From: Candidatus Omnitrophota bacterium
Lineage (GTDB): Bacteria > Omnitrophota > Gorgyraeia > Duberdicusellales > 4484-171
Assembly: GCA_023819525.1 (NCBI GenBank)
Contig: JAMWCT010000002.1
Coordinates: 1-37,179, forward strand
Direction of reading: 5' to 3'
Length of the DNA stretch: 37,179 nucleotides
Positions 19,868 through 33,139 of this stretch are shown here, piece after piece. Both the position numbers and the translations under genes were made by a program. Position 1 is the first letter of the stretch. The number at the start of each line of letters is the position of its first letter. A model generated the notes under the pieces. It worked only from the letters and a program-made list of their open reading frames with translations. It ran no database searches and was not told the origin of the DNA.

Positions 19868-19907
19868 TCGTTTTATTTTAAATGAGCCGCCTCAAGAATC
19901 GAACTCG
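19868..19907 (-). repeat. Degenerate duplicate of the tRNA-Lys 3' end (T-arm and acceptor) plus downstream flank
   Basis: tcgttttattttaaatgagccgcc identical to 20108-20131, followed by agaatcgaactcg shared with the tRNA-Lys T-arm after a 1-nt length difference. Confidence 0.85.
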
Positions 19908-19920
19908 TCGCTTCGCTCCT

Positions 19921-19953
19921 CATAAGAGGGAAAACTACGTTTTCCCTCTTATG
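19921..19953. repeat. Perfect 15-bp inverted repeat, 3-nt loop
   Basis: cataagagggaaaac-tac-gttttccctcttatg. Confidence 0.95.
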
Positions 19954-20000
19954 ACGCTTTTCGCTGTCACTCCCTTTCCTTACAAAGAAGAGAAAGTGAT

Positions 20001-20025
20001 GTGAGGGAAAATTCTTTTCCCTCAC
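20001..20025. repeat. Perfect 11-bp inverted repeat, 3-nt loop, related to the 19921 hairpin
   Basis: gtgagggaaaa-ttc-ttttccctcac; shares the gagggaaaa...ttttccctc core. Confidence 0.95.
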
Positions 20026-20122
20026 GCTCCCTTTGCGAGTTCGCTTCTCTTATATGCTTTTATGAAAGAACTTTTTTGCTCTTTAAATTTGAATTTCTTG
20101 TTCGCTATCGTTTTATTTTAAA

Positions 20123-20195
20123 TGAGCCGCCCGAGAATCGAACTCGGGACACCCGGCTTAAAAGGCCGGTGCTCTACCTACTGAGCTAGCGGCCC
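20123..20195 (-). tRNA. tRNA-Lys(TTT)
   Basis: Acceptor GGGCCGC/GCGGCTC, anticodon arm CCGGC-CTTTTAA-GCCGG, T-arm CCGAG-TTCGATT-CTCGG; no encoded CCA. Confidence 0.95.
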
Positions 20196-20198
20196 AAA

Positions 20199-28883: not shown

Positions 28884-29588
28884 ATGAATAAGAAAGCTGA
28901 ACCATTAATAGCCTACAACTTAGATACGCAAAGAATAAAAGAGACTTTTTTTTCTCTACCAAAAAAAAGGCATATTGTAAAAAAGAAAAAAGGTTTTTCT
29001 ACAAAAAACAAATATTTTTTTATAGTAGTTGCCTCTGCTATTTTTTTATCTTTTTTTTTCTTTTTGCTAAATTATGATTTTTTAATTATTCCTAAAAAAA
29101 GTATAAAACAAAATGGTATCCCACTTTTACAAAAAAAATTCTCAAACATTAAAATCATAACAAAAAACACTAACATAAAAGCAATCAAAAAATTGCCTAT
29201 TTATATTGACTTATTACAAAATAAAGAATTAATAATTGAATTTAAAAAACCTACTAATTTAAAAGAAAATTTATTGTTTTTATATATTAAAAAATCACCA
29301 CCGCCTATAGAAATGACAGTTACCGTCAGGGATGAACAATTTTTTTCTAATTCTCTAAACCCTTATAAATTGACAATAACACAAACCAATAATGACTATA
29401 TAAAGATTCCCCTTGATTTTACAACTATAAATTTTCAAAATGCAAATTTAAGAAATATTTCGCAAATAAAATTTTCTTTTTTATCAACGAGCTTTAATTT
29501 AAATATCGAAAAAATTATCAAAAATAAAAATGATAAAAATTGGGTAATATTAAAAAATCTTTTTTTAATAAAAAAGGAGGTATTGTGA
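28884..29588 (+). CDS. Single-pass membrane protein: basic cytoplasmic N-terminus, one TM helix, beta-rich extracytoplasmic domain (possible galactose-binding-like/CBM-like fold)
   Basis: TM YFFIVVASAIFLSFFFFLLNYDFLII; C-terminal beta pattern LLFLYIKKSPPPIEMTVTVRDE...YIKIPLDFTTINFQNANLRNISQIKFSF. Confidence 0.7.
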   Translation: MNKKAEPLIAYNLDTQRIKETFFSLPKKRHIVKKKKGFSTKNKYFFIVVASAIFLSFFFFLLNYDFLIIPKKSIKQNGIPLLQKKFSNIKIITKNTNIKAIKKLPIYIDLLQNKELIIEFKKPTNLKENLLFLYIKKSPPPIEMTVTVRDEQFFSNSLNPYKLTITQTNNDYIKIPLDFTTINFQNANLRNISQIKFSFLSTSFNLNIEKIIKNKNDKNWVILKNLFLIKKEVL

Positions 29589-30601
29589 AAACTATAGCAA
29601 TAGTAAACCAAAAAGGTGGTTGCGGAAAAACAACTATTGCTATAAATCTATCAGCCGCTCTAGTTAAAAAAAATTATAAAGTTTTACTTGTTGATCTAGA
29701 TCCACAAGCCCATGCAACATATTCTTTAGGAGCAAATGCAAATTTATCTATAACTGACATAATGGAAGCAATTGCTGAAAATAAACAACTTTCTTGCGAA
29801 GATATACTTAAATCGTTGTGGGAAAACTTTTATATTATTCCATCAAGTATAGGTTTGGCCTCTTTAGAACATCGACTTATAAATAAAGAAAATAAATTAG
29901 CCTTGCTATCTTCTCTTTTGAAAAACATTTTAAATTTTGATTATTGTATTTTAGATTGTCCACCAAATTTAGGTCTATTAACACTTAATGCATTATGGAC
30001 AAGCCAATATGCAATAATTCCTTTAAGTATGTGTGACTATTCTTTACGTGGCGTAGAAATATTAAAAAATATTATTCTTATGATAAAGGAACAACAAAAC
30101 TCCTGTCCTATAACTTTTTACCTTCTGAATGGTGTAGATAAAAGATATAAATTTGTAGAAAACTTTATTACAAAAGCCAAATTACAACTTAACACTCTTC
30201 TTTTAGATACACAAATACGCACTAATATACATTTACGTGAAGCAGCATCTTCTGGAAAATCAATATTTCAATATAAACCGGATAGTCGTGGAGCTCAGGA
30301 TTTTTATACTTTAGCCGAAGAGGTAGAAAAAATCACTTCACAAAGTAATTGGGTATCGCTTTTTTTAAAAGATAATTCTTTCTCTGAAGTTTATGTTGCT
30401 GGAGATTTTAATAACTGGAATAAAGATCAGAAATATAGATTAAGCAAAATTGGAGATATTTGGAGCATTAATCTTGCTTTAGATAAAGGAAAATATTGCT
30501 ATAAATTTGTAAATCAAGAAAGTTGGTTTTCTGATCCTCATAATAATTTAACAGAAACAGATCCCTTTGGTGGAAAAAACTCTGTACTTATAATTAAATA
30601 A
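29585..30601 (+). CDS. ParA/MinD-family ATPase with C-terminal CBM48/AMPK-beta-type glycogen-binding domain
   Basis: Deviant Walker A QKGGCGKTT, DLDPQAHAT, DCPPNLGLLTLNAL; C-terminus VYVAGDFNNWNKD...GKYCYKFVNQESWFSDPHN...GGKNSVLI. SD AAGGAGG precedes GTG at 29585, preferred over the ORF-track ATG 29540. Confidence 0.93.
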   Translation: MKTIAIVNQKGGCGKTTIAINLSAALVKKNYKVLLVDLDPQAHATYSLGANANLSITDIMEAIAENKQLSCEDILKSLWENFYIIPSSIGLASLEHRLINKENKLALLSSLLKNILNFDYCILDCPPNLGLLTLNALWTSQYAIIPLSMCDYSLRGVEILKNIILMIKEQQNSCPITFYLLNGVDKRYKFVENFITKAKLQLNTLLLDTQIRTNIHLREAASSGKSIFQYKPDSRGAQDFYTLAEEVEKITSQSNWVSLFLKDNSFSEVYVAGDFNNWNKDQKYRLSKIGDIWSINLALDKGKYCYKFVNQESWFSDPHNNLTETDPFGGKNSVLIIK

Positions 30602-30602
30602 C

Positions 30603-31286
30603 TTAATAGTCCTTCCTTGCTAATAAAACCTTCCCAACGGGCAGGTTAACAGATAGATGCAAAACAGTTTTTGTCTCTTTCTCTAAAAACACGTTGATGT
30701 GTTTCTCTTTTAAACCTTTTATAAGATAAACGTTTTTTGTTTTTCCATTTTTCATTAGTGTTTTTAGTGAATCTACTTTCAGATCTATCTTATTAGTTGG
30801 AAAAATAAAACTAAAAAATGATTTTTTATCTAAATCTAAGTTTTTGGGGAAATAATAAAGCAAGGCTAACATATTTTGAATGGGTTTTCCTGGATAAAAA
30901 ATTTTTGTTTTCTTTGCAAAGCCATTAGTATATATTTTTACATAACCTTTTTTTTGATTATATATTTCTTTAATGACTTCTCTTTTTCCGAAAAAATTTA
31001 TCTTTCTCTCTACTTTTAAAGGAAGATATGTTTTGCTATCAAGATAAATATATTCATGACTTTTTAAATTAAATAATGGGGCAACATTTATGTTTGTTTT
31101 AACAAGTAAAACTTCTACCCAATTTTCATAAGTAAAATTTTTCCCAACATAACTATATTCAATTTTTCCTACCAAAACGTCGTTAAAATAAACATCATAA
31201 AAGACGCTCTCTTGATTTGCCAAAACAAATCCATAATTACAAAATAATAACAAAGATATAAGCAGAGAAATTATACGCAATAGCAT
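30603..31286 (-). CDS. Secreted DUF3108-like protein
   Basis: Signal peptide; FYDVYFNDVLVGKIEYSY, LPLKVERKINFFGKREVIKEIYNQKKG pattern. Confidence 0.6.
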   Translation of the reverse strand: MLLRIISLLISLLLFCNYGFVLANQESVFYDVYFNDVLVGKIEYSYVGKNFTYENWVEVLLVKTNINVAPLFNLKSHEYIYLDSKTYLPLKVERKINFFGKREVIKEIYNQKKGYVKIYTNGFAKKTKIFYPGKPIQNMLALLYYFPKNLDLDKKSFFSFIFPTNKIDLKVDSLKTLMKNGKTKNVYLIKGLKEKHINVFLEKETKTVLHLSVNLPVGKVLLARKDY

Positions 31287-33139
31287 TCCAGTTTTTTAAT
31301 TTCCTCTATTTTTTCTATCGCGGCCAGCTTTCCTCTTTCTATAATCTCATATACTTTTTCAAACTCCATCCAACCAATGCCTTCTAGATTTGGATGTATA
31401 ACCACATCAGCTATAGATACGGCTTTATTGATAAATTCTCTTTGCATAGTCTCAATGCTACCAAAAATAAAATCAAATATATGGTGTTTATTGCGTTTTT
31501 TATATTCTCTAAATATTTCTTCTTGAGTAGGTGTAATATTAACGGCAATTACTCTGTTCACATTATAGTTTAGTAGTATTTTTGTTGGAAGCGGATTTAA
31601 TATACCGCCATCTAAAAGAAGTTCTTCTTTAAATTTTACCGGCTCAAAAATTCCAGGCATCGCACAACTAGCCGCTACTGCTTTATATATAGGACCGCTA
31701 TCTATTACTGTTGTTTGTTTTTTTACAAAATCAAAAGCAACAATTTTAAGAGCATGTTTAACATCGTAAAAGCTTTTATTGCCAAAAATTTTCTTACAAA
31801 GGTGCTCAAGGTGTTTTGAACGTATCAAACCCCTAAATGGAATAGAAAAACCAAAAAATGAAAAACTTCGCAACAACTTTCCAAATTCTTTGGCAAGTCT
31901 TTCTATTTCAAATATCTTATAGCCCAAAGCCCAAAGCGCTGCTATAACTGAACCCATGCTTGTGCCGCAGATTAAATCTACAGTTACATTATGTTCCTCT
32001 AATACTTTTAAGACCCCTATATGAGAAAAACCATATGCAGCACCACTTCCCAAAGCCAGACCAACTACAACTTCTCCAAGTTGGCGACTAATTCTTGTAA
32101 TTGCTTTATCATAAGCATCAGTAGATATAGGAGGTAGAGTAGCGTAAATTGGATGATCTAGAATTGTAAGTTTTTCTTGCGTAAGTAAATTATCTTTGCT
32201 CCCAAATTCATTTACAAGAACTCTTATTCTATCCTGCGTAAAAGAATATTTGTTTTTTAACTCACCAATAAAAATGCTTGAGCGCTTTAATTCTTCTAAT
32301 TGTGAAAATAAAATAAAATCTATATAATCTGCTACATCTATAAACTCATCAACCACATCAATCATCTCTAAAGAGGGGACTTCATAAATAATAAAATGAT
32401 AATTTTCAGAAATAAAATTTAAAAAATCACCAAACAGATCTTTAGTGTCAAGTTTTAGCAAAAGATAATCAGCGTCATCAGAAATTATATTTTCAAAAAT
32501 TTTATTTTCATCAAATTTACTTAATAAAAGAGCATTCTGCTCTTTTTTAATAAAATAAGGAAGCATAAAGGTATCAGTTAAAGATATCTCTATACCAATA
32601 ACTTTGCGGTTTGTTACTTTTTTCAAGACTTTACATAGTTTATAAAGATAAGTAGTCTTACCAGAAGAGGAAAAACCTAAAATTGCAATTCTTCTAAATT
32701 GAAATATTTTTTTTGGCCTTGCTTCCTGTGCTCTTACACGCTGTGAAAGCATTCGTGAAAAATCTAACGAAATATTAGGATATTTAGTTAAAAATTGCTT
32801 AAATTTTTCTTTTTCTACTATCAAAATATACGAAGTTTCTATCGCTTTTGCAGTAATTGAATGTGGCTGGTCAGTAAAAAGAGAAATTATTCCAAAAGAC
32901 ATACATCTTTTAAGTAAATCTATTTCAATTTCTTTATTTTCATAAGAAACAGAAGCAACTACTTTTCCTTTCAGAATGAAATAAAAATAATCTGCTGGAT
33001 CAAATTGCTTATAAATTATTTGTCCTTTTTTGTATTCTTTTATAATCGCTATTAAAATAAGTTCATCGATGGCGCTTTCGTTTAATTTGTTAAATGTTGT
33101 GCTATTACTTAAAATAAATTTTACTTCTGCTATATCCAT
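31271..33139 (-). CDS. NTE-like patatin phospholipase: N-terminal cNMP-binding domain, central P-loop region, C-terminal patatin
   Basis: cNMP region YFYFILKGKVVASV; Walker A GFSSSGKTT; patatin GSGAAYGFSHIGVL, GTSMGS (GXSXG), LLLDGGILNPLP (Asp of dyad). Confidence 0.92.
   Translation of the reverse strand: MDIAEVKFILSNSTTFNKLNESAIDELILIAIIKEYKKGQIIYKQFDPADYFYFILKGKVVASVSYENKEIEIDLLKRCMSFGIISLFTDQPHSITAKAIETSYILIVEKEKFKQFLTKYPNISLDFSRMLSQRVRAQEARPKKIFQFRRIAILGFSSSGKTTYLYKLCKVLKKVTNRKVIGIEISLTDTFMLPYFIKKEQNALLLSKFDENKIFENIISDDADYLLLKLDTKDLFGDFLNFISENYHFIIYEVPSLEMIDVVDEFIDVADYIDFILFSQLEELKRSSIFIGELKNKYSFTQDRIRVLVNEFGSKDNLLTQEKLTILDHPIYATLPPISTDAYDKAITRISRQLGEVVVGLALGSGAAYGFSHIGVLKVLEEHNVTVDLICGTSMGSVIAALWALGYKIFEIERLAKEFGKLLRSFSFFGFSIPFRGLIRSKHLEHLCKKIFGNKSFYDVKHALKIVAFDFVKKQTTVIDSGPIYKAVAASCAMPGIFEPVKFKEELLLDGGILNPLPTKILLNYNVNRVIAVNITPTQEEIFREYKKRNKHHIFDFIFGSIETMQREFINKAVSIADVVIHPNLEGIGWMEFEKVYEIIERGKLAAIEKIEEIKKLECYCV

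Follow-up and report, generated by a model that had tools for sequence, protein, structure and literature searches.

A structured insert behind tRNA-Lys as one copy of an apparently undescribed non-coding mobile family in Omnitrophota bacteria

The tRNA-Lys locus

The window (the whole stretch of 37,179 nucleotides analysed here, from contig JAMWCT010000002.1 of the Candidatus Omnitrophota bacterium assembly GCA_023819525.1) contains an intact tRNA-Lys gene. In the direction of the tRNA, this gene is followed by an arm complementary to its T-arm, a compact core of three hairpins and a duplicate of the tRNA 3' end (Table 1). The repeat is made up of 24 identical nt (19868-19891 and 20108-20131, spacing 240) and 13 identical nt (19895-19907 and 20134-20146, spacing 239), with one 1-nt length difference. 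A 24-nt exact direct repeat within 1 kb is far beyond chance. A preliminary description of this DNA had reported the repeat, two perfect hairpins between its copies and the absence of a credible ORF there, all of which are borne out. The antisense arm did not figure in that description. It is complementary to the tRNA-Lys T-arm as well as to its duplicate and closes the region into one structure; its pairing with tRNA-Lys has a single internal mismatch, opposite A58. The fold of the region as RNA has a z-score of -7.5, and 0 of 200 shuffles were equally stable. At the Rfam gathering score only tRNAs score in the window, and the best sub-threshold matches at permissive thresholds are chance-like.

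Table 1 Features of the tRNA-Lys locus (window coordinates)
Feature	Position	Strand	Basis or remark
tRNA-Lys(TTT), intact, target gene	20122..20196	(-)	ARAGORN; Rfam RF00005, 69 bits
Target duplication, proximal copy: T-arm, 3' strand of the acceptor, ~14-15 nt of flank	20108..20146	(-)	
AT-rich spacer, from duplicated flank to arm	20050..20107	(-)	sequence
Antisense arm, 5'-GAGAAGCGAACTCGC-3'	20035..20049	(-)	complementary to tRNA-Lys nt CGAGTTCGATTCTC and to the distal duplicate
Conserved structured core, AAAGGGAG ... GGAGCGAAGCGA(C)	19908..20034	(-)	15-copy alignment; model R1, 131 bits; covariation
Core hairpin 1, GTGAGGGAAAA/TTTTCCCTCAC, perfect, 11 bp	20001..20025	(-)	sequence, fold, covariation
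Core hairpin 2, imperfect, CTCTTCTTTGTAAGGAAAGGGAG	19967..19999	(-)	RNA fold
Core hairpin 3, TCATAAGAGGGAAAAC/GTTTTCCCTCTTATGA, perfect, 16 bp	19920..19954	(-)	sequence, fold, covariation
Distal duplicate: 3' end of tRNA-Lys with its flank	19868..19907	(-)	95% identical over 39 nt

The small non-autonomous inserted element proposed in the preliminary description is supported by relatives that have no tRNA-Lys duplication and by filled and empty sites at three tRNAs (see below). None of the 15 relatives with a readable flank at tRNA-Lys has a duplication there, and in the 12 of these uninserted relatives where Leu lies in the locus, the Lys-Leu gap is 1-172 bp. The other options raised there, tandem duplication at the locus and a second, decayed tRNA-Lys gene, would account for the repeat itself and nothing else. 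The duplicate has no 5' half, and the core recurs at tRNA-Pro in the same genome and across the class, which leaves both with a negligible probability.

Elsewhere in the window, Pfam domains show an unusual pairing of a ParA/MinD-like ATPase with a C-terminal glycogen-binding AMPK1_CBM domain (29540-30601, plus strand), and a cyclic-nucleotide-binding domain joined to a patatin-like phospholipase (31271-33139, minus strand).

Distribution, core structure and placement of the family

The insert belongs to an apparently undescribed family of small, strongly structured, non-coding mobile elements in Omnitrophota bacteria. A second copy in the same genome lies behind tRNA-Pro(GGG) and is 91% identical over the aligned core, with a different arm that is complementary to tRNA-Pro (GCGACACCTTGAACC against GGTTCAAGGGGTCGC). 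A search of 58 relatives with the core gave matches in 14 genomes, the strong copies nearly all being located behind a tRNA (Asn, Lys, Thr, Met, Phe, Gln or Pro). The covariance model (R1), built from 15 aligned copies and with matches counted at E <= 0.001, detects the element in 17/42 genomes of the order and 117/384 of the class (~30%); in a sample of the phylum it matches 104/384 genomes, and the listed matches all belong to the same class except for one genome. The general layout of the copies is a tRNA, a short spacer, a 10-26-nt arm antisense to the same tRNA, the structured core and a second tRNA 3' end. No ORF was found in any copy. Partial units occur in tandem (L010, L018, L086, L097). 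Copies at different tRNAs of one genome are closer to each other than to the copies of other genomes in only 11/34 cases, so most of the copies are old. Phage and plasmid collections gave no match to the element, and the single match among viral contigs was to a 20-nt motif and unrelated.

The 20-nt string AAAGGGARTTTGAGGGRAAA is also present in Clostridia, Lentisphaerae, Thermoguttaceae and other repeats. Such repeats outside the family have no tRNA context and weak or no model scores, and they were not counted. Metagenome-assembled genomes of rabbit-gut Clostridia (L101-L180, e.g. L105 and L167) contain many intergenic repeats with the element's 20-nt hairpin-1 string AAAGGGAGTTTGAGGGAAAA behind a conserved AAAGTTTTTTG, weakly scored by the model and showing no linkage to tRNAs. 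Some copies that lie upstream of tRNA-Arg or tRNA-Glu, or in tandem (L091), form a possible sublineage (L080, L083, L091, L095): they have their own target-arm hairpin enclosing a TATCCGC..GCGGATA-like stem, and their AGCGAAGCGAC end adjoins the tRNA 5' end. The genome G053 has another kind of repeat (..AAGGAAAACTACGTTTTCCTT..GTAGTTTTTCT): in L016 its end directly precedes tRNA-Met, and L023 contains it again at another place.

The core comprises ~130 nt and several helices, and the 3' end of the element reads ..AGCGAC or ..TATGARAA. A sorting of the arms by 3'-end lineage rested on a loose pattern and was set aside. Over 82 distinct aligned copies 95.3% of the cells are paired, and in 27 of the 31 pairs both partners vary; none of 500 shuffles comes near these values, and neither do slid controls (51-73%). 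The alignment was fitted to the model, which biases the counts in its favour, but the margin is wide. Several core positions often have G.U, and such standing pairs favour an RNA read from the tRNA strand.

Of the 127 copies read, 77 directly follow a tRNA in the same orientation, 70 of these at no more than ~110 nt from it, and most kinds of tRNA serve as targets. With ~45 tRNA genes in 1.5 Mb, we estimate the chance expectation for this placement at well under 1%. Another 14 copies are upstream of a tRNA, 7 are opposite one and 29 have no tRNA in view, the latter partly because of contig ends or missed tRNAs. At least some of the tRNA-less copies have other targets or tRNAs overlooked by ARAGORN, for instance the 3' end of a pheA-like gene (L081), and L236. 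In the 51 copies outside the 70, an arm-target complementarity score of at least 10 is reached in 23%, versus 1.4% of swapped pairs.

This distribution bears on the preliminary reading of the two repeats as att sites, which would make them the attL and attR of a tyrosine-integrase element at tRNA-Lys. A direct repeat of a tRNA 3' end around an insert is indeed what such a remnant would look like. Nevertheless, the same core is found at most tRNA kinds, each time with a duplicate of that very tRNA and not with a carried att sequence for one tRNA, so the repeats are target duplications made at insertion; the att reading is not supported. In addition, the copies read showed no integrase, either inside or next to them, the window copy having no ORF, and a remnant of this kind would leave the antisense arm and the covarying core unexplained. 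We regard it as very improbable. With a probability of about 0.6, the region instead arose when a small mobile element of ~150-250 bp, non-coding and non-autonomous, inserted here; the element most likely works as a structured RNA of ~130 nt in the tRNA direction.

Target duplications, antisense arms and insertion

The genome G453 has empty sites at three tRNAs that are filled in G362, a member of the same genus. The G362 inserts measure ~150 bp and contain the arm and the core as well as an AT-rich spacer; the target duplication spans 20-21 bp, from GTTC... to the last tRNA base (nt 53-73). By analogy with this pair, the AT-rich spacer of the window would be part of the insert. More widely, the outer end of the duplicate is at nt 73 (+/-1) or 3 nt beyond, which is the end of the encoded CCA where present, in 31/59 copies, and the inner end is variable. 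This suggests that the mature tRNA 3' end matters for the outer end of the duplicate. The pinning to nt 73 could partly come from selection for an intact tRNA, from the decay of unselected flank or, in the G362 cases, from a fixed 21-bp stagger. A target duplication with one consistent end, as found in this family, is a feature of target-primed retroelements.

Duplicates are often 100% identical to the tRNA, which could also be expected if the family were not mainly mobile but served tRNA genes as a functional cis RNA (in 3' processing or termination, or as a decoy), its duplicate being kept by selection. The recurrence in many copies of a tandem G.A at positions 57-58 of the arm-tRNA helix would fit such a role. 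Yet the element is patchily present, related genomes have it at different tRNAs and the empty sites are clean, so that this explanation appears improbable.

The match between arms and targets is specific. In the 70 tRNA copies the mean arm score is 9.7 against the own tRNA and 5.9 against tRNAs of other anticodons, and scores of at least 8 are reached by 52/70 own pairs versus 10% of swapped pairs; one copy (L165) has a perfect antisense arm of ~25 nt to tRNA-Phe. The genome G044 has three cores that are 95-96% identical at tRNA-Thr, -Gly and -Met (closest outside match 86-89%), and their arms (AGGGGGCGAAC, CAGGGGCGAGAACCCC and TAGGACGAGAACC, respectively) each match their own tRNA. Likewise, the Asp, Thr and Arg cores of G362 are ~90% identical and have the perfect arms GGGATTTGAAC, GAATCGAAC and GGAATTGAAC. 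Such near-identical cores with different matching arms imply that the arm is renewed or reselected at each site. It is also linked to the insertion point, since the duplicate starts 0-3 nt from the tRNA position paired with the inner end of the arm in 30 of the 58 copies with a duplicated tRNA 3' end; the offsets of the remaining 28 scatter, partly from misplaced local alignments.

The start of the duplicate 0-3 nt inside the arm-target duplex in about half of the measured copies could also be explained by an RNA-guided insertion, in which a pre-existing arm directs a nuclease or recombinase to the tRNA as the 5' guide of a scaffold RNA, the arm being a spacer and the duplicate a primer-binding site. 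The order of guide, scaffold and target complement and the perfect arms at some sites are congruent with this scenario. However, arms differ per target in near-identical cores, and each jump would need a new guide first, which makes the scenario unlikely, if less so than the cis RNA. The search for an IscB N-terminal domain (PF14239) gave 0/24 element-bearing genomes; as the control genomes gave no match either, this is no sign of its absence.

Mismatches between arm and tRNA are concentrated at tRNA positions 57 (49%) and 58 (55%) and mostly amount to 0-11% across positions 51-68. At position 57 a tRNA G usually faces an arm A, and at position 58 a tRNA A faces an arm G; GAGAAC is found in 28/124 arms against a background of ~0.8%. 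Position 58 is known elsewhere as the m1A58 site. The mismatches reflect either a selected tandem G.A motif or an arm copied from a tRNA modified at 58. The distal tRNA fragment often has a small extra hairpin in the T-loop (L022, L092, L247), between GTTC and GA and opposite the G.A step of the arm. Together with the tandem G.A, these hairpins are suggestive of a putative k-turn or k-junction.

A mobile structured element with a target-derived antisense arm very probably underlies these observations, and we infer that it inserts via an RNA or a single-stranded intermediate. Target-primed copying of an RNA may be the process involved, although we propose it only tentatively. In that case, an opening in the antisense strand of the target, in the T-loop or close to it, would provide a 3' end that primes the copying of the element from the element's 3' end. 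At the 5' end of the core, the new strand would switch back onto the target (or the tRNA) and copy 10-26 nt of it, producing the antisense arm. The position of the second junction, at the mature tRNA 3' end or further out, would mean that the tRNA stays whole on the left side and that the right side receives a 3' fragment. Such copying with a strand switch would explain why the right end is consistent and the left end variable, and how the duplication and the arm arise. Nevertheless, no reverse transcriptase accompanies the family: RVT_1 is present in 8 of ~50 element-bearing genomes and absent from G044 and G362, the genomes with the clearest recent copies. The copies that lie upstream of a tRNA or have none nearby count against the overall explanation. 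It is conceivable, at longer odds, that the family represents a new bacterial retro-like class, in which a small structured RNA inserts in the tRNA 3' half and each time acquires target antisense sequence at its 5' end, perhaps copied from the modified tRNA itself.

Alternatively, the core could be a compound palindromic repeat moved as single-stranded DNA by a RAYT (IS200/IS605 Y1) transposase, in the manner of REP/BIME sequences. To our knowledge, long target duplications are not expected of this chemistry, which counts against it. Y1_Tnp (RAYT) genes are present in 36/46 genomes examined, but no element adjoins any of the 30 RAYT loci examined, and G091 has 6 element copies and no Y1_Tnp match. 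Even with the resemblance of the CGTC-tagged hairpins of the core to CGTC REPs (PMC3733652), RAYT transposition seems about as improbable as the cis RNA.

Comparison with known systems

A literature search, with subscription papers and preprints outside its reach, found no description of such a family, and we know of no small repeat described in bacteria whose target-complementary arm is made anew with every insertion. Several known systems share some of its features. Integrase-dependent islands at tRNA 3' ends also have the tRNA 3' end duplicated around the insert and leave the tRNA intact, but here no integrase was found, the tRNA differs each time and the arm is copied from the target. The OMEGA (IscB/IsrB) guide RNAs have a 5' guide followed by a structured scaffold; unlike them, the present family has an arm that is antisense to the adjacent target and renewed per site, and no nuclease was found. 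Eukaryotic SINEs and target-primed retroelements are alike in their non-coding RNA-like body, one consistent end, a target duplication of varying length and an enzyme acting in trans, whereas the family described here has a target-complementary arm, a bacterial host and no linked reverse transcriptase.

REP/BIME sequences, CGTC-tagged REPs and Rickettsia palindromic elements (PMC3733652) are likewise small, palindromic, non-coding and multicopy, often lie just downstream of genes and bear CGTC-like tags. Yet they are hairpins of 20-40 bp, whereas the family has a multi-helix covarying core of ~130 nt, prefers tRNAs, makes long target duplications and carries an antisense arm specific to its target. 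CGTC-tagged REPs, for which no dedicated enzyme is known (PMC3733652), are the nearest in look, but neither a RAYT gene flanked by the repeat nor a 20-40 bp single hairpin with a GTAG or CGTC tag was found in the family.

None of the known kinds that were tested can explain an antisense arm that derives from the target and is renewed with every insertion. Should this be confirmed, the family would be a mobile RNA-like one across Omnitrophota that changes its own targeting sequence, occupies a safe position at essential tRNA genes and requires a mobilising enzyme. The pairs of filled and empty sites and the recent copies make its mechanism directly testable, and it is the renewed arm that sets the family apart from the known systems compared here.
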